Source: Aquimarina spongiae (GTDB lineage: Bacteria; Bacteroidota; Bacteroidia; Flavobacteriales; Flavobacteriaceae). From it: 64,000 nt of DNA. A model generated the notes under the pieces. It did not search any database and had not been told where the DNA came from. It worked only from the letters and a program-made list of their open reading frames with translations. Where the stretch lies: NCBI RefSeq assembly GCF_900141785.1, contig NZ_FQYP01000002.1:62001-126000 (forward strand), given 5' to 3'. How positions within the stretch are numbered: the first letter of the stretch is position 1; each line of letters starts with the position of its first letter. Shown one piece after another: positions 31,204 through 59,179 of the stretch. The translations under genes and the position numbers were made by a program.

Positions 31204-31791
31204 TTACTCTTGTATTTGATTATTCAATTCTTCAAATTTCTGTAGTAACTCGTCTAATTTGGCATTTTGCTTCTTGATCACTCTAGGTCGTAAGTACCAC
31301 CAATTTATTCCTATCCAAAGTAAGGTGGCGGTATACACCACAATCCCCCAGAACCCTGTCATTTTTGAAACGTACTCAAACAAATACAATGCTATGCCCA
31401 AAGAAAGCATTACAAAATAGATACTCAACATCCACTTTTGCTGAAATATCTGTTTTTGCTTTAGTTGCATCAACTGCCTAAGGTATGTTTTATTATTATC
31501 TCCCTCATTCGTCTTGAGTAGTGAAATCCATCTATTGTAAGGAATCAAAAAAATGATCATGGCAAGAATAGCCAGTACGAGTCCTATTTTTGTTGTAACA
31601 TATTCGGGTTGATATCGATACCAAATGCCCCCTATGATACAAGAAGTAATCAACAATATTGCATTTGCGCCCATAAGTTGATAACGTTTATACCTCTTCA
31701 ACCGATCCGCTTTTTTATAAAGATCTGCAATTTCAAGTTTTTGAACTTCCTGAGTATTCCAGATTTTTTTGAAGTCTATATTAGTATCCAT
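31204..31791 (-). CDS. Four-helix membrane protein, candidate anti-sigma factor
   Basis: A 195-residue protein with a basic N-terminal cytoplasmic helix (about 1-38) and four predicted membrane spans near residues 40-58, 68-86, 120-138 and 146-164. The C-terminus is a coiled coil (NAKLDELLQKFEELNNQ). It overlaps the sigma gene by 11 bases, the translational coupling typical of sigma/anti-sigma pairs. I see no ZAS zinc motif and no FecR domain, so the anti-sigma role rests on position alone. Confidence 0.55.
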   Translation of the reverse strand: MDTNIDFKKIWNTQEVQKLEIADLYKKADRLKRYKRYQLMGANAILLITSCIIGGIWYRYQPEYVTTKIGLVLAILAMIIFLIPYNRWISLLKTNEGDNNKTYLRQLMQLKQKQIFQQKWMLSIYFVMLSLGIALYLFEYVSKMTGFWGIVVYTATLLWIGINWWYLRPRVIKKQNAKLDELLQKFEELNNQIQE

Positions 31792-32266
31792 TTTCTTTAA
31801 ACTTTTTGGTTAGCTTTTCCTTGATTCTATGAATTTTAACTCGAACATTCCCTTCTGAAATTCCTACAATCTTGGCAATCTCTTTCTGATCGATGTCTTC
31901 TAACTCAAGGGATATGATAATACGGTCAATTTCTTTTAGTTCCGAAATACATTGATGTAAAAACTGAATGTGATTTTCGATAGTAACCTCTGAAGTTTCA
32001 AGCTTCATATGAGGTGGTAATTCTGATTTAGGCATCCTCTTTTCTTTTTGAATTTGACGTAGACAAGTATTTGTCGTAATTCTAAATATCCAGGTACCAA
32101 TAGCAGACTCTCCTCTAAAATTGGGGAGTTGTCGCCAAACTTTAACAAACGTTTCTTGAGCCAGATCTTTGGCTTGATCAGTATGGTTAACATACCCCAT
32201 ACAGAGTCTGTACACCTTCTGCCAATAGGTTTTATAAATCTCTTCAAAATCCATTAGTTGATCCAC
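31781..32266 (-). CDS. ECF RNA polymerase sigma factor
   Basis: A 161-residue group IV sigma factor. Region 2 covers about residues 8-75 (YRLCMGYVNHTDQAKDLAQETFVKVW, then FRGESAIGTWIFRI) and region 4 about 105-155 (DIDQKEIAKIVGISEGNVRVKIHRIKEKL). It overlaps the hydrolase gene by 13 bases and the membrane protein gene by 11, so all three are translationally coupled. The operon promoter at 33206-33230 has the ECF pattern described there, so autoregulation is likely. Confidence 0.88.
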   Translation of the reverse strand: MDQLMDFEEIYKTYWQKVYRLCMGYVNHTDQAKDLAQETFVKVWRQLPNFRGESAIGTWIFRITTNTCLRQIQKEKRMPKSELPPHMKLETSEVTIENHIQFLHQCISELKEIDRIIISLELEDIDQKEIAKIVGISEGNVRVKIHRIKEKLTKKFKENGY

Positions 32267-33180
32267 TCTTTTAAGGTATCAATAAATTCCTTTTGACAAT
32301 CGATAAATGGGTTGTGCGATGCATGATCAAACTTTTTAAAATTCGTATTGCCTATCAGGTTTTTGATTTTTTCTATTTGCATTTCAGAAAAAAGACCATC
32401 ATCTTCTCCATATATCCCAAAGATAGAAATACGCTGTGTTTGAATATTCTTTACCATATCCTTGATATCAAGTGTTGTGTATTTTTCATTTTTCCAAAAC
32501 CCCATTGGTGCCTCAAAGGTCATTTGTGAGGCATACTTCAATAATACAGGATCTTTTTTAAAATTTGCATACATCTGTGATGCCTTTGTTGTTGGCTTTT
32601 GGGGATGATAAAATCCATTTTGCATTGCATGACTAAAACAATACGAACTATATTGAATAGAACTTTTGTCTATTTTTTCTAACATCCTAATGTAATTCAG
32701 ATTTACAGTATCCTTGTTTCGCATATAGATTTCTTTAGAAGATTTCACAATCGTAGAAAGGGTTTCCTGCATAGACAAAGGAGTAGACACCAATACAACG
32801 GATTTTATTTTATTTGGATGTTGTTCTGCATAAAGTGTAGCTACGATCCCTCCAAAACTATGTCCCATTAGCGTTGCTGTTTTTAAGTCGAACGTATCGT
32901 AAATAGCATTCAAATCATTAAATGTTTCTTCAAAGGTAAATTTCGTGTTTTTATCTGTTGATCTCCCTTCTCCTCTTCTATCGTAAACAATCACATAAAA
33001 ACCATTTTCTGCAAGAATTTGAGCTGTCGTCCTTTCAAAACCCGCAGCATTATATCCAGGTCCTCCATGAAGAAATATAATTGCTTTGTGATTTGGGTTT
33101 CCAAATGCTTTGGTAAATAATGTTTGTGATCTTACAGAAGCTACCAATAGTATACAAAATAACACCAGTGTTTTTTTCAT
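32254..33180 (-). CDS. Exported alpha/beta hydrolase, first gene of an ECF operon
   Basis: ATG 33180 gives 308 residues with signal MKKTLVLFCILLVASVRSQ. Upstream codons to 33222 would overlap the promoter. The fold is shown by FLHGGPGYN (oxyanion loop of proline iminopeptidase-like enzymes), DRRGEGRS, and the nucleophile elbow MGHSFGG near residue 110. An acid in the GEDDGLF segment and His in FDHASHNPF complete the triad. A hydrolase leading a sigma-factor operon is unusual; it could generate or remove the inducing signal, which is speculation. Confidence 0.8.
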   Translation of the reverse strand: MKKTLVLFCILLVASVRSQTLFTKAFGNPNHKAIIFLHGGPGYNAAGFERTTAQILAENGFYVIVYDRRGEGRSTDKNTKFTFEETFNDLNAIYDTFDLKTATLMGHSFGGIVATLYAEQHPNKIKSVVLVSTPLSMQETLSTIVKSSKEIYMRNKDTVNLNYIRMLEKIDKSSIQYSSYCFSHAMQNGFYHPQKPTTKASQMYANFKKDPVLLKYASQMTFEAPMGFWKNEKYTTLDIKDMVKNIQTQRISIFGIYGEDDGLFSEMQIEKIKNLIGNTNFKKFDHASHNPFIDCQKEFIDTLKEWIN

Positions 33181-33205: not shown

Positions 33206-33230
33206 GATACAAGGAATCTCAAAATGTTAC
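33206..33230 (-). promoter_or_regulatory. ECF-type promoter, site D (hydrolase-sigma operon)
   Basis: On the minus strand GTAAC (33230-33226) is followed after exactly 15 bases by GTATC (33210-33206), 26 bases before the hydrolase ATG. The same two boxes and spacing occur at three sites around the second ECF gene at 56-57 kb. The flanks differ from those three (GTAACATT and GTATCTAAACG here), which may mark a different sigma specificity. Confidence 0.6.
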
Positions 33231-53218: not shown

Positions 53219-53566
53219 CTATTGATCAGACCAAATGGCCAATTCATTTCCTGCTGGATCCAAAAAGTGAAATCTGCGCCCTCCAGGAAACGAAAAAATT
53301 TCTTGCGCAAGTTTTCCTCCGGACTGCAATACGGTTTCTTGTATTTCTTCCAAATTTGCGTGATACAATACCACCAAAACACCATTAACTATAGGGTCAT
53401 CCGATTTTTCAAAGCCGCCTTCCAGTCCACTATCTGCAAATGCAGTATAACCTGGCCCATAGTCTGTAAACTTCCATCCAAAGGCTTTTATGTAAAAGGC
53501 TTTTACAGCTTCCAGGTCTTTTGCTTTAAACTCTATGTAATTGATATGATTATCTTGTTGCTTCAT
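53219..53566 (-). CDS. VOC (glyoxalase/dioxygenase) family protein
   Basis: A 115-residue single-module VOC protein: INYIEFKAKDLEAVKAFYIKAF at the beginning and FHFLDPAGNELAIWS at the end, with the E of NELAIW as probable metal ligand. ETVLQSGGKLAQEIFSFPGG is the middle beta-strand block. It precedes the GNAT gene and follows the DUF1905 gene, forming a compact three-gene group. Confidence 0.8.
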   Translation of the reverse strand: MKQQDNHINYIEFKAKDLEAVKAFYIKAFGWKFTDYGPGYTAFADSGLEGGFEKSDDPIVNGVLVVLYHANLEEIQETVLQSGGKLAQEIFSFPGGRRFHFLDPAGNELAIWSDQ

Positions 53567-53581
53567 TGTTGAAAGGTATGC

Positions 53582-53878
53582 TTATAATAAAATATGTACT
53601 TTGATCTCTTCATCGATCTGGATATAAGTCTTTTTCCTAATTGCAGCTTTTACCGGTAGGATGTAGCTCTCATTCTTCGTATCATACCAAATAGCAGTAT
53701 CCCATTGGATCTCCTTAATAATAGCAGAAGCTTTCATCCTTCCCCAACCTTCTTCCTGCCACTGTAGATGTTCTCTAATTTCTTTTGACATTTCTTTGGG
53801 AACAGAAACAAAAAACCATCCTCCTGGAACATCGTGCTTCCATAATTTGGCTGAAAAAGTATATTCAATTTTTGGCAT
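53582..53878 (-). CDS. DUF1905 protein
   Basis: A 98-residue protein with the DUF1905 pattern: EYTFSAKLWKHDVPGGWFFVSVP, then GWGRMKASAIIKEIQWDTAIW and SYILPVKAAIRKK. The domain is often fused to YdeI-type proteins; here it stands alone. Function unknown. Fifteen bases before the VOC gene. Confidence 0.75.
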   Translation of the reverse strand: MPKIEYTFSAKLWKHDVPGGWFFVSVPKEMSKEIREHLQWQEEGWGRMKASAIIKEIQWDTAIWYDTKNESYILPVKAAIRKKTYIQIDEEIKVHILL

Positions 53879-53971: not shown

Positions 53972-54478
53972 TTATTTGATGAATCCTACCATATTTTCTA
54001 CCATTTCGGTTACAGCTCTTTGTAAAAAGGCTCTAAATTGAATCTCGGTCATATTCGGGTTTTTCAGGAATTCATAATTAGACGTCCATACAATCATCGA
54101 TTTATTTAATCCCATATCTACGACCCGAAAACTATTCTCTACCTTCTTTGCCGGAACTCCTTCTACCACTTGCCACGTATAGGTTCGGTCACTATCATCA
54201 AACTTCATGATTTTTTCTTTAAACTTTCCCTTTCCATCGGGTGCAGTACACACTCTGGTCCCACCTATTCCTTTTGGGCCTATCCATTCTACCTTACCTA
54301 CAAAAGAGGATATCTTATCAATATTATCCATTTTTCGTATTTGCTCCCAGACCTTATCTGCAGAAAAATCTACATGTGATACATAACTCAAATCTGATTT
54401 GTGATTTTGTGCTTGTACCTGAAACGTTCCTACTACAGTAACTATTATTATTACAACTTGTTTAATCTTTTTTTTCAT
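53972..54478 (-). CDS. Exported SRPBCC (START-like) protein
   Basis: A 168-residue exported helix-grip protein (signal about 1-23). The START-like pattern is HVDFSADKVWEQIRKMDNIDKISSF at the beginning and RTYTWQVVEGVPAKKVENSFRV in the central strands. IVWTSNYEF and the long C-terminal helix close the cavity. Fourth gene of the SRPBCC operon, 18 bases after the NTF2-like gene. Confidence 0.75.
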   Translation of the reverse strand: MKKKIKQVVIIIVTVVGTFQVQAQNHKSDLSYVSHVDFSADKVWEQIRKMDNIDKISSFVGKVEWIGPKGIGGTRVCTAPDGKGKFKEKIMKFDDSDRTYTWQVVEGVPAKKVENSFRVVDMGLNKSMIVWTSNYEFLKNPNMTEIQFRAFLQRAVTEMVENMVGFIK

Positions 54479-54496: not shown

Positions 54497-54853
54497 TTAA
54501 TAAAAGAATTGTTCAAGAATGATTTTACCTTCTTCAACTTGATAAATAATAAGTTCATCAAGCGCCCTTTCATCTCCATTTTTGAGCGTTAAAGAAATTT
54601 TATACGGAATAGCGATGAAGTTCTTGCTGGTCACATAATCTCCAATTTCTAAGGACGTTACTTCCTCAATATTTCCGGTCATAACTGTATCCTTTTCTTT
54701 GATAGCTTTTACTCCTACTAATTCTGGAAAATGAAGAGATTGTGGTTCGATGTGTTTTACCTTCTCTTGATGAAAAAGGGTGTTATAAATGTCTTCGAAC
54801 TTCCCTTCTTCCAGCAGTGTTTTTAGCTCTTTGGCTATAGCTTCGGTTGTCAT
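54497..54853 (-). CDS. SnoaL/NTF2-like protein
   Basis: A 118-residue cytoplasmic NTF2-fold protein: LKTLLEEGKFEDIYNTLFHQE at the start, LVGVKAIKEK and the long strand NFIAIPYKISLTLKNGDERAL, ending VEEGKIILEQFFY. Unlike the neighbours it has no signal peptide. It sits between two exported SRPBCC genes with spacers of eight and 18 bases, so it is co-transcribed. Confidence 0.7.
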   Translation of the reverse strand: MTTEAIAKELKTLLEEGKFEDIYNTLFHQEKVKHIEPQSLHFPELVGVKAIKEKDTVMTGNIEEVTSLEIGDYVTSKNFIAIPYKISLTLKNGDERALDELIIYQVEEGKIILEQFFY

Positions 54854-54861
54854 ATTATACG

Positions 54862-55476
54862 TTATTTTAATACAGTATAGTTATAAGTATTTTTAATGTC
54901 TTTGAATTTGTTGTTAGAAGCATTTACTACTTCTCCAGTTTCTACATAATGTTTTAATCCCACTAATGTCTCGCCCAATAACTTTTTGAATTTACCTTTG
55001 GCCAATCCAGCCATAAAAGCGGGTTTGGTTCTAAACTGAAACTTATAGCCTGCTGTTGCAGTCCCATCTCCATTATCTTTTACATAGTAAATGGCCTGAG
55101 AATTGTTTTTGTCCAAAGGAAATTTAGCTGCATCTTTAATGATATTGATCATACGCATATTTTGCGCATCAATGTCAAGAATAGTCTCGTGTGCCCATCT
55201 CTTTTTATTTTCACTGAAATAACACTTTCTTTCTGCTCCAACTTCTCCTTTTAAGGAACCACTTTCATAATGAGAAGAATAGATAAAGGGAGAAAAGTTT
55301 CCCACTTTGCCATAGTCCAATACCATGGTTTCCCAAACTTTTTCTGCTGAAGCGTTTATTACAATTTCGGTATTAAGGGTTTTGAACTTTTTTGTCATCC
55401 GTTCTTGCCCCAGGATCGAATGACTTGCTAAACCAAAAGCCAAAACAATCATTACTGTACGCATTACATTTTTCAT
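54862..55476 (-). CDS. Exported SRPBCC (START-like) protein with its own ECF-type promoter
   Basis: From ATG 55476 the product has 204 residues and a signal MKNVMRTVMIVLAFGLASHS. Codons up to 55518 would overlap the promoter. The helix-grip fold shows in TEIVINASAEKVWETMVLDYGKVGNFSPF, then GSLKGEVGAERKCYFSE and the C-terminal helix. It is the second SRPBCC gene. A GTAAC-N15-GTATC pair sits 37-57 bases upstream, its -35 box overlapping the stop codon of the preceding gene. Confidence 0.77.
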   Translation of the reverse strand: MKNVMRTVMIVLAFGLASHSILGQERMTKKFKTLNTEIVINASAEKVWETMVLDYGKVGNFSPFIYSSHYESGSLKGEVGAERKCYFSENKKRWAHETILDIDAQNMRMINIIKDAAKFPLDKNNSQAIYYVKDNGDGTATAGYKFQFRTKPAFMAGLAKGKFKKLLGETLVGLKHYVETGEVVNASNNKFKDIKNTYNYTVLK

Positions 55477-55507: not shown

Positions 55508-55533
55508 GGATACATCAATTCAAGTGGTGTTAC
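55508..55533 (-). promoter_or_regulatory. ECF-type promoter, site B
   Basis: Minus strand GTAACACC (55533-55526) then, 12 bases later, GTATCCAAA. GTAAC and GTATC are 15 bases apart as in sites A, C and D. The flanks TTTTGTAACACC and ATAAATC match site A. Confidence 0.65.
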
Positions 55534-56042
55534 AAAACTGAAGCTACCTTCTTTGATAATTTTTGTAATTCTTTTGTTTTATGAGGGCTAGGTTGTCCTG
55601 TTTCTACAAAGTGTTTTAAGTCATTGGGAATACTTGCAATCTGTTTGGCTAATTGTATTTTCATCATAGGAGCCATTATGCGTCCAATAAAACCTTTGGT
55701 AGTCACTATCAGATGCATATTTACTCTGGTCTTATCGCTTCCTATTTCGTTCAACTGCCAATTATTAATCGCGGTGTCAACAAAAAATGGAAAACCTTCA
55801 ATGACTTCGTACTCTAACTCGTATTTCTGCGGATCAAAAGTTCGTATTACCTCTTTGACCTTTCCTGATGGTAATTCGCAAGCTCTGTTATTAGATGGAG
55901 CTTCGATGATAGTTGGTGCACCATACCCTCTGGAATGATTGAGTCCTGAAGCCCATTTGTAGGCATCCCCAAATTGATTCCCCAAGATATCCCACACGGT
56001 TGCAATCTTCCGGTTAATAATAATTTCTTTCTTAAATTCCAT
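55530..56042 (-). CDS. SRPBCC (START-like) protein
   Basis: A 170-residue cytoplasmic helix-grip protein without signal peptide; INRKIATVWDILGNQFGDAYKWASG and YELEYEVIEGFPFFVDTAIN are the START-type blocks. First gene of the operon that continues to 53972 (three SRPBCC proteins plus one NTF2-fold protein). The four genes follow each other within 53 bases or fewer. Confidence 0.76.
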   Translation of the reverse strand: MEFKKEIIINRKIATVWDILGNQFGDAYKWASGLNHSRGYGAPTIIEAPSNNRACELPSGKVKEVIRTFDPQKYELEYEVIEGFPFFVDTAINNWQLNEIGSDKTRVNMHLIVTTKGFIGRIMAPMMKIQLAKQIASIPNDLKHFVETGQPSPHKTKELQKLSKKVASVL

Positions 56043-56079: not shown

Positions 56080-56105
56080 GGATACGAGAAAGTTAGAGGT
56101 GTTAC
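56080..56105 (-). promoter_or_regulatory. ECF-type promoter, site A (SRPBCC operon)
   Basis: Minus strand GTAACACC (56105-56098), 12 bases, then GTATCC (56085-56080) followed by AAATGATAAATC. It begins just below the terminator of the sigma gene and ends about 38 bases before the SRPBCC ATG. Confidence 0.7.
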
Positions 56106-56110
56106 AAAAT

Positions 56111-56143
56111 CAAAAAAGGCTACTTTTCGTTGAAGTAGCCTTT
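56111..56143 (-). terminator. Terminator after the ECF sigma gene
   Basis: On the minus strand AAAGGCTACTT pairs with AAGTAGCCTTT (11 pairs, seven-base loop) and TTT follows. It separates the sigma gene from the SRPBCC operon. Confidence 0.8.
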
Positions 56144-56167
56144 GATATACAATCGAAAAAAGGGGGA

Positions 56168-57040
56168 TTACAGACGGAAATAGTCAGTAAGCTTGTCATT
56201 ATTAATCAACTCATTTACAATGGTATCTTTGTCAAAATCGTCTTTTACCGGATGTTCTTGAAACAGTTTTGTATACGTATCGGTAAAATCATCTAATGCA
56301 GCAGCATGATTTTGCTCTACAAAGTCTTTTACTTTGGTCTGCGTTTTGATATTAAATACCATCTTTTCTTCGTCCAAGACTCCCATTTGTTTTAAGGTCT
56401 TTGCCTTTTTGGGACAACGACAAGGATTGTTTGTATTGACCAAACCACATTTGTTATTCATATAATTAAACAGGTCCTTACGAGCTCTATGCAATTTGAT
56501 TCTAAAATTTTGTGCACTGATATTGAATATTTCTGCACCCAAATTATGATCAATTCCAAAACTTGCACCCAAAATAAAAATAAGACGCTGTTCCCTATTC
56601 AAACACATAATCATCCCACTCATACATTGAATTTGCATTTCTTTAGAAAGCTCTTGATAGGCAATATCTTCCTCGATAGTCAATTCGGCATTGGGTACCT
56701 GATCCAGACGTTCGGCATAATCAGTAAAGTCCGAAAATTTCTCTTCTCCTTTTCTACGCTTGGTCTGCAAAAATTCATTAACCACAATTCGATACAACCA
56801 GGTACGAAATTTACTTTTGAAACCAAACTGCGCTAATTTGGTTATCACTTTTATTAATACCTCTTGTGTAAGATCCTGAGCATCGTTTGGATCATGACAT
56901 AATTTCCAGGCCAGGTTGTAAATAAAAGGTTGGTGATATCCGATAAGATCGTTGAGCGCTTTTCGATCACCTTGGATAGCTTGTTTTACTAATTCTTGTT
57001 GTTCACTATCAGAATACGTTTTACTAAATGGAAAATTCAT
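56168..57040 (-). CDS. ECF sigma factor with a Cys-rich C-terminal extension
   Basis: A 290-residue group IV sigma factor. Region 2 spans about 18-95 (LAWKLCHDPNDAQDLTQEVLIKV, FKSKFRTWLYRIVV) and region 4 about 128-195 (LNREQRLIFILGASFGIDHNLGAEIF, ISAQNFRIKLHRARKDL). Beyond it a roughly 95-residue extension begins with C198, C207 and C209, a possible metal or redox site. Sigma factors of this size usually carry a regulatory C-terminal domain. No anti-sigma gene is adjacent. Its own promoter (site C) and that of the next operon share the same boxes. Confidence 0.87.
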   Translation of the reverse strand: MNFPFSKTYSDSEQQELVKQAIQGDRKALNDLIGYHQPFIYNLAWKLCHDPNDAQDLTQEVLIKVITKLAQFGFKSKFRTWLYRIVVNEFLQTKRRKGEEKFSDFTDYAERLDQVPNAELTIEEDIAYQELSKEMQIQCMSGMIMCLNREQRLIFILGASFGIDHNLGAEIFNISAQNFRIKLHRARKDLFNYMNNKCGLVNTNNPCRCPKKAKTLKQMGVLDEEKMVFNIKTQTKVKDFVEQNHAAALDDFTDTYTKLFQEHPVKDDFDKDTIVNELINNDKLTDYFRL

Positions 57041-57066
57041 AATTAAACCGTTTTATCATTCTGATG

Positions 57067-57087
57067 CAGAATCTGTACAAGTGTTAC
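57067..57087 (-). promoter_or_regulatory. ECF-type promoter, site C (sigma gene)
   Basis: Minus strand GTAACACT at 57087-57080, then GCATCAGAATGATAAA starting at 57067. Spacing between GTAAC and GCATC is 15 bases as at the other sites, and the -10 flank AATGATAAA equals site A. This predicts autoregulation of the sigma gene, about 27 bases before its ATG. Confidence 0.65.
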
Positions 57088-57163: not shown

Positions 57164-58024
57164 TTAGTATTTTACTTTAATATCACCATTAGTTCTAATA
57201 TACAATATACTATCGTCATTAGTTTCGTTGACTACTCTATGAATTGCCTCATCTGTAGCTGTAAAATAGCTACCTGGGTCTAAGATTTTTACATCTCGGT
57301 TTTGAGGCAAAGTGTAATGCAACTCTCCTTGTACAAGAATCGCATGAAAAATTTCTCCATCACTAACAATTTCACCAGTAAATTGTTTCGGTAGTTTTAC
57401 AAAAAAGCCTTGTAGACCATCATTATTATTACTTTTCCATAGAAAACTTATCTGGGCATTACTTTCTACACTAATCCAATTGGTAGCTTCGCTAGTTACC
57501 CAAACTACGTTTGAGGCATCTATGTTAACAGGACGTTCCCCATTTTCAAAAGCTTTATCAATGGGTTTTACCAAATATGGTCCGCTATCAATTTCTACAT
57601 AAGCTATATTTTCTTTTCCTTTTGCAGAAGTGATATGTGATTCTCCGGCTGGTTGTGTCCAAAAAGAACCTTGTGGCATCCACATAGCCGCAGCATTCGG
57701 ATCATCATTATGGATCAACCCCTTGATTACAACAGCCCGGTAGGTAACATTATGAATGTGCGGAGGTGAAGAGAAACCATCTACAAATTTTGCCAAAAAA
57801 CCAGTAGCCACAGTATCTTTTCTATCGCCCCAAACTGTTCCCGCTAGTGGGCTTTTATCTCCTCTAGCCGGATTTAATTTTTGCCATTCAATTTCAGAAC
57901 TTAACACCACTTTATTTGTAGATATTACCTTTTTAGGATTGGACACTTTTTGCACAGGTTTTTTTTCCTCGGTACAAGAAATTGCTATACTAACTGCAAT
58001 AACTACGTATAAGATCTTCTTCAT
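57164..58024 (-). CDS. DUF4437 cupin lipoprotein
   Basis: ATG 58024 gives 286 residues with lipobox SIAISC (C17). Two cupin-like halves follow; the first includes [19 protein letters not shown] and [20 protein letters not shown], the second [17 protein letters not shown]-type and [15 protein letters not shown], the layout of DUF4437. The metal His pair H-I-H is present only in the first. It lies between the royal-jelly-type and sigma genes. Confidence 0.75.
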
Positions 58025-58084
58025 TGTATCCTGATTATATTGTTTACTGAATATACCCAACACGAATGGGATTCCAGATATGTG

Positions 58085-59179
58085 TTATAACTTTACTTTT
58101 TTGATAAAATAAGGAGGCTTTCCTAAATCTTCTGCTCCGGTAAATGCTGGTGCTTTGTGCAATTGGTTTACTACCACATATAACCATCCATCATTACCCA
58201 CTGCTACATTGTCTGGCCAATCGATAGACTTATCTCTTATCACAGGTTGTAATTCTCCCGATGCATTCAATACATCTAAACCATACTCCTGAAGGTTGGT
58301 AAAGTAATGATTGCCATTTCTATCCGTAGCAACACCGTCTGAAATCGGCTTTGCTCCTACTACCTGTATCGCCTTAGCTATCTCGCTGTCTTCTTTTCCT
58401 TCTCTAAATACACTTGCTGGCACACTATACCATTTCGTTCCATTCATAGCTCCAAAGAACAAGGTACTTCTATCATAACTTAAGGTAATTGGATTTACTG
58501 CTACTCGTGCCGGAGCACCTCCAAAATGGATCACTTTACCATCGATGACCATATCGATGTCCTCGGCCTCAACTACCTTGTCTGCGAATCTTCGTACCGT
58601 TTTGTTATTGATATCAACTGCTAAGATTCCTGGATTTGCAATATCAGCAAGATAGACCCAACCATTTTTCTCATCTACCGCCAAGTCTTGAATAAAACTT
58701 CCTTTGGGTGCTACATCCTGGGGAAACTCGAATCGAAACACCTCTTTTTTGGTACCAATATCAAAACCAAACAAACGAGTTTTTCCTAGATTTTGTCCCA
58801 TATCAATGATCCATAGCACATTGTTTTTGGCAACACGTATTCCCAATGGAGTATCGAGTTTATCATCACTTGCAGTAGCTCCATTCTTTTGGTAATCGGT
58901 GCTTGGAAAAGGTTCTACATTACCATTTTTTACCTCTACCAACTGAAAGTTAGAAGCATCCAAAGGATGCATCGTAGCAAACACACGCCCGTCTTTGGAT
59001 ACCGCAACATTACCCGGACGGGTATCAAACTCAGCAACATTTTGCAGTACCTTTTCTTCTTCTTTCTCCTCAGTAACTTCAGTAGCATTCGTGTTTTCCT
59101 CTTTCTTTTCTGGAGATTTACACATGGTACAAACACTTAAAATCACAGTAAAGGCAAATGCCATAGTTATTTTTTTCAT
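58085..59179 (-). CDS. Major-royal-jelly/yellow-type lipoprotein
   Basis: A 364-residue lipoprotein (leader ends CTMC, C20) with an acidic KEE/EEK linker (about 23-45) and a six-bladed propeller. Blades carry RPGNVAVSKDGRVFAT, LGIRVAKNNVLWIIDMG, IQDLAVDEKNGWVYLAD, PARVAVNPITLSYDRSTLFFG and PDNVAVGNDGWLYVV, the pattern of the yellow/MRJP (L-dopachrome tautomerase-related) group rather than SMP-30. Residues of an active site are not clear. The promoter carries the 23-bp element also found in front of the nitroreductase gene. Confidence 0.82.
   Translation of the reverse strand: MKKITMAFAFTVILSVCTMCKSPEKKEENTNATEVTEEKEEEKVLQNVAEFDTRPGNVAVSKDGRVFATMHPLDASNFQLVEVKNGNVEPFPSTDYQKNGATASDDKLDTPLGIRVAKNNVLWIIDMGQNLGKTRLFGFDIGTKKEVFRFEFPQDVAPKGSFIQDLAVDEKNGWVYLADIANPGILAVDINNKTVRRFADKVVEAEDIDMVIDGKVIHFGGAPARVAVNPITLSYDRSTLFFGAMNGTKWYSVPASVFREGKEDSEIAKAIQVVGAKPISDGVATDRNGNHYFTNLQEYGLDVLNASGELQPVIRDKSIDWPDNVAVGNDGWLYVVVNQLHKAPAFTGAEDLGKPPYFIKKVKL

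Follow-up and report, generated by a model that had tools for sequence, protein, structure and literature searches.

Among the described ECF sigma factors, CorE and CorE2 of Myxococcus xanthus (ECF238, formerly ECF44) work without a partner anti-sigma factor and depend on cysteines located close to sigma4 and within an extension at the C-terminus (PMC8999054, PMC9023288). OrbS of Burkholderia cenocepacia (ECF243) carries cysteines after region 4.2 that serve as an on-board iron sensor (PMC9023288). From CorE, CorE2, and OrbS it is known that cysteines of this kind can act as metal sensors, with either an activating or an inhibiting effect (PMC8999054, PMC9023288). The ECF41 factors Ecf41Bli and SigJ also have no anti-sigma factor and contain a fused C-terminal regulator, which is SnoaL-like (PMC3426412). 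SigW of B. subtilis and sigmaE of E. coli recognize AAC-type -35 boxes, and in crystal structures sigmaE F175 and SigW H174 make contact with the opposite-strand T at -33, and sigmaE R171 with the base paired to -31 (PMC6713349). SigW and sigmaE are controlled by membrane anti-sigma factors and have large regulons. The GTAAC -35 box is also known from SigD of C. glutamicum (PMC11588781). A literature search for GTAAC combined with Flavobacterium ECF factors found no paper.

We analyzed two ECF sigma genes, 56168 and 31781, and four candidate promoter sites (A–D) in a 64-kb stretch of the Aquimarina spongiae genome (G000), hereafter the window. As judged from the sequence, sites A–C are very probably read by the 56168 sigma factor, in a positive autoregulation with a very small dedicated regulon and with the C-terminal extension as the likely control, and site D by the sigma factor of its own operon. 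An autoregulatory ECF circuit is of a known kind; the sigma family to which this one belongs has a cysteine extension that is apparently undescribed and displays a clear natural change of promoter specificity.

The cysteine-tailed sigma factor and its neighbors

The genes of the two loci, all on the minus strand, are as follows.

56168–57040, minus: ECF sigma factor of 290 amino acids with a C-terminal extension of about 90 amino acids (Pfam Sigma70_r2, 1.9e-16; NCBIfam sigma70-ECF)
55530–56042, minus: SRPBCC gene 1 (Polyketide_cyc2; Pfam, 3.9e-07), predicted target, at the same place in relatives
54862–55476, minus: SRPBCC gene 2 (Pfam, 7.3e-10), predicted target
54497–54853, minus: SnoaL_5 gene (Pfam, 2.1e-19), probable operon member
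53972–54478, minus: SRPBCC gene 3 (Pfam, 1.8e-16), probable operon member
53582–53878, minus: DUF1905 gene (Pfam, 2.1e-21), possible operon member
53219–53566, minus: glyoxalase-family gene (Pfam, 3e-08), possible operon member
32254–33180, minus: alpha/beta hydrolase (Pfam, 2.3e-30), first gene of the second operon
31781–32254, minus: second ECF sigma factor, 157 amino acids, without an extension (Pfam Sigma70_r2, 2.1e-17; Sigma70_r4_2, 1.3e-13)
31204–31791, minus: membrane protein, about four hydrophobic segments by hydropathy, presumed anti-sigma factor

Both sigma proteins contain the sigma2 and sigma4 domains of ECF factors. For the 56168 protein, sigma4 scored 20.9 bits, below the Pfam cut-off of 25.7 bits, whereas the NCBIfam ECF model scored above its own cut-off, and the best match of the sigma part was SigW. 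The AlphaFold model was helical throughout with a mean pLDDT of 82.9. Cysteines occur at residues 48, 139, 146, 198, 207, and 209. C139 and C146 (C139-x6-C146) are located where sigma4 begins, and the extension holds the pattern C198-x8-C207-x-C209. The five cysteines from 139 onward (139, 146, 198, 207, and 209) were invariant in 40 aligned relatives and nearly always kept across the family, which covers Bacteroidota, Chloroflexi, Spirochaetes, Firmicutes, Proteobacteria, and other phyla. No Pfam match was obtained after residue 190, and no anti-sigma gene was recognized beside the sigma gene.

The cysteines of the 56168 sigma factor are placed similarly to those of CorE and CorE2. In contrast, CorE-like proteins have a C-x4-C-x2-C-x-C pattern at the C-terminus, where the 56168 protein has C-x8-C-x-C, and a CXC in the sigma2-sigma4 linker, which is absent here. 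The targets also differ: metal-resistance genes for CorE and, as predicted, SRPBCC genes for the 56168 sigma factor. OrbS has another cysteine spacing, a short tail, and an iron-starvation regulon. The likeness to CorE, CorE2, and OrbS would be one of working and not of membership, because the cysteine spacing differs. In regard to ECF41, the SnoaL-like extension has no counterpart among the Pfam matches of the 56168 protein, and the TGTCACA/CGTC promoter contrasts with TGTAACA/GYATC at the 56168 sites. The cysteine extension of this family is apparently undescribed, since no description was found in the literature searched. It would most likely replace the anti-sigma factor, gating the sigma factor in response to a metal or other ligand that it binds, or to redox state; in this widespread family, the conserved cysteine extension may sense a signal directly. 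What the sequence shows is the sites, how they are conserved, how they go with the sigma loci, and how helix and box match; that these promoters are transcribed, how far the operon reaches, that the extension senses a signal, and that no anti-sigma gene lies elsewhere in the genome are inferred.

Two further sigma genes of the same genome encode cysteine-bearing tails. One is a second, divergent member of the family with a different helix (CGVYNPKNGCRC; G000:C11:87728-88435; L041, L177), and the other is a 299-amino-acid sigma factor with another tail (CTLIHKTGACWKC; G000:C11:49399; L156).

Downstream of the 56168 sigma gene, the same-strand order is SRPBCC, SRPBCC, SnoaL_5, SRPBCC, DUF1905, glyoxalase, and GNAT. 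The SnoaL_5 gene is a probable operon member on the basis of spacing and strand. Our guess from the fold family is that the SRPBCC proteins bind a hydrophobic ligand. Directly upstream of the sigma gene, a DUF4437 cupin-like gene (57164–58063) and a gene of the major royal jelly protein family (58085–59179) lie on the same strand. In sister-group genomes, a TetR-type regulator was observed inside the SRPBCC cluster (L104, 5273–5854, minus).

With its presumed membrane anti-sigma factor, the second operon would be akin to the SigW and sigmaE systems, unlike the 56168 circuit. Its membrane protein gene overlaps the end of the sigma gene and gave neither a Pfam match nor an anti-sigma domain match; an open reading frame of similar length comes after the sigma gene in relatives.

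Candidate promoter sites and their conservation

The four sites in the window, each read as a putative promoter, are as follows; the distance given is that between the -10 box and the start codon ATG.

57063–57087, minus: site C, GTAAC-N15-GCATC, promoter of the 56168 sigma gene, distance 23 bases
56081–56105, minus: site A, GTAAC-N15-GYATC, promoter of SRPBCC gene 1, distance 39 bases
55509–55533, minus: site B, GTAAC-N15-GYATC, internal promoter before SRPBCC gene 2, distance 33 bases
33206–33230, minus: site D, GTAAC-N15-GYATC, promoter of the second sigma operon, distance 26 bases

Site B overlaps the end of SRPBCC gene 1 (55530–56042). An earlier note on this DNA had described the four sites: its coordinates for D were confirmed, whereas the ends of A and B were off by one and the lower end of C moved from 57067 to 57063. 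Its placement of C before the 56168 sigma gene, of A and B within the adjoining SRPBCC operon, and of D before the second ECF operon was correct. The stretches that it reported as shared, AATGATAAA in A and C and TTTTGTAACACC/ATAAATC in A and B, were all present, and the TTTTGTAACAC part was kept in relatives. We do not count the AATGATAAA and ATAAATC tails, at first thought to belong to the promoters, among their parts, since relatives lack both.

The pattern GTAAC-N15-G(T/C)ATC gave exactly 4 matches in the window against 0.14 expected, and none of 100 shuffles of the window gave 4 matches. Over the whole genome, the enrichment of the loose GTAAC-N15-GYATC pattern that the earlier note had proposed as a check did not appear (14 matches versus 12 for the reversed pattern), because the regulon is tiny and confined to three loci. 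This near equality is what chance matches in AT-rich DNA would give; however, the count in the window and the conservation in other species refute that explanation, to which we assign a negligible probability.

The longer pattern TGTAACA-N14-GYATC gave 5 matches in the genome and 0 for the reversed control, namely the four sites of the window and a fifth one, E, and all of them stand before genes of three sigma loci. The remaining 9 loose matches seemed intragenic, as judged from their flanks. Allowing one mismatch in the TGTAACA pattern gave 48 matches against 34 for the control and no clear additional targets in the genome. Site E (TGTAACA-N14-GCATC, G000:C16:181361) lies outside the window before a third sigma operon (G000:C16:181361-182720; L009, L066) that encodes a 31781-sigma paralogue with 41% identity (G000:C16:182268). 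The -35-reading helix common to the 56168 and 31781 sigma factors is R-[IV]-K-[LI]-H-R. When all 43 sigma70-region-2 matches in the genome were examined, the signature R-[IV]-[KR]-[LIM]-H-R was found in only 3: 56168, 31781, and the paralogue whose operon follows site E. All 5 exact sites lie at the loci of these genes.

We then compared the sites among relatives. In eight genomes with close relatives of the 56168 sigma factor, TGTAACAC-N13-GYATC preceded the sigma gene and was found again at one or two places downstream. Orthologues with 83–53% identity (G006, G009, G013, G022, G272, G368, and G431) accounted for 20 sites in seven genomes. In those of the genomes that were scanned by target-gene families, the first genes behind the downstream sites were SRPBCC genes. 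Among relatives belonging to the subgroup of the 56168 sigma factor, the equivalent of site C preceded the start of the sigma gene by 41–66 bases. The strict pattern of this site class (class I) was found three times each in G000, G006, G009, and G022, and twice at the locus plus once elsewhere in G013; the remainder of the 56 genomes had 0–2 matches each (other members of the genus, 0–1), and the reversed control gave 2 matches over all 56 genomes. The sister group has a clade II sigma factor (44–48% identical) whose recognition helix differs, and there the -35 box was TGTCACAC. The clade II pattern TTGTCACAC-N13-GYATC gave 8 matches in the 56 genomes (control, 0), all at the clade II sigma locus and covering 6 of the 6 genomes having that sigma factor. 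That the sites keep their places in relatives, go together with the sigma loci, and change with the helix argues that they are promoters of those sigma factors.

In most relatives that have the 31781 sigma factor or its paralogue, the hydrolase-sigma-membrane protein operon stood behind TGTAACA[A/T]TT-N11-GYATC. Three relatives without this strict site D pattern had near versions (L045, L058, and L067). Two paralogue operons (L044 and L069) had TGTAATA in front, and the helix residue equivalent to sigmaE R171 was Gly and not Arg in these two cases only.

Assignment of sites to sigma factors

Site models for class I and class II were trained on relatives with G000 left out. The class I/class II scores were 39.8/5.0 for A, 34.2/-4.0 for B, 21.2/16.1 for C, 13.4/31.8 for D, and 6.5/40.5 for E. 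The helix common to both sigma factors accounts for the shared -35 box. The bases separating the two site sets are TGTAACAC versus TGTAACAATT/TTT beside the -35 box, together with bases after the -10 box. These scores support the assignment of A, B, and C to the 56168 sigma factor, C being the least certain because of its small margin, and of D to the 31781 type, in front of whose operon the site is kept; both assignments had been made in the earlier note.

A less likely arrangement is cross-talk or a hierarchy, in which the 31781 sigma factor or the G000:C16:182268 paralogue also reads A–C or drives the 56168 sigma gene through C in a cascade. The core boxes are identical and the helix is nearly so, the class II score of C (16.1) is near that of the weakest class II member, and the two operons are adjacent in G013. 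However, A and B scored poorly in class II, the class I sigma factor is missing from most genomes having class II sites, and G022 has three class I sites and no P0002 relative. We consider cross-talk unlikely on this balance, recognition of C by the 31781 sigma factor being its most plausible form.

Under the preferred reading, in which A–C belong to the 56168 sigma factor, this factor would transcribe its own gene from site C, whereas transcription of the adjacent SRPBCC operon would start at A and, within the operon, at B. The separate canonical operon of hydrolase, ECF sigma factor, and membrane protein would be transcribed from D by its own sigma factor. Both ECF sigma factors have a bipartite promoter that is predicted to be autoregulatory, and the suggestion of autoregulated circuits gains support from sites that occupy the same places, are present with the sigma factor, and change with the -35 helix. 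Circuits with only two or three promoters allow every site to be followed.

Residue 184 and base -33

We searched 107 distinct family members for TGTNAC-N13-18-(TGTCT or GYATC) within 1300 bases upstream; base -33 was left open and the other -35 bases were fixed, so that the search informs on base -33 only. A site was found for 56 of the 107 members, and about half had no recognizable site within the 1300 bases. A at -33 occurred with His184 in 21 members and with Tyr184 in one, and C at -33 occurred with Ser or Ala184 in 34, with no exception; the 56 members are related and the tree has only two switches, so that they are not 56 independent trials and an independent-pairs test cannot reach significance; a Fisher value of 1.6e-14 assumes independence of the members and is to be disregarded. 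Among the 5 matches of the opposite-strand control, A at -33 did not occur. When the helix columns were left out of the tree, base -33 and residue 184 changed twice each, at the same places. Residue 184 aligns with sigmaE F175 and SigW H174, and SigW has His at this position. The case is compact and checkable, as a regulator and its DNA sites vary jointly at a contact that crystal structures have established.

An operator of an ordinary transcription factor can also be a conserved sequence at a fixed place. Sites A–D, however, consist of two separated boxes with fixed spacing, are non-palindromic, and stand 23–39 bases ahead of the starts; moreover, which base the -35 box has at the contacted position depends on the sigma residue that contacts it. 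We regard the operator explanation as very improbable and retain that of sigma promoters.

Many relatives of the 56168 sigma factor have TGTCACA with TGTCT, and TGTCACA, the -35 box of most family members outside the two H184 groups, is also that of ECF41 (PMC3426412), which differs in its CGTC -10 box. The SigD promoters of C. glutamicum share GTAAC with the 56168 sites and differ in the N18–20 spacer, the GAT -10 box, and an unrelated regulon. For family members of other subgroups, no motif was found directly upstream; a wider search of one subgroup revealed TGTAACA/TGTCT approximately 530–620 bases upstream. The combination of TGTAAC and TGTCT in a His184 subgroup indicates that the -35 and -10 boxes changed separately. 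We lean toward a history in which the cysteine-tailed family started from TGTCACA/TGTCT and gained His184 at least twice, the -35 box changing from GTCAC to GTAAC each time and the -10 box changing separately to GYATC.

In the His184 subgroup comprising L108 (Tyr), L109, L145, L147–L150, and L267, sites of the TGTAAC/TGTCT type were observed approximately 530–920 bases upstream of the sigma gene.
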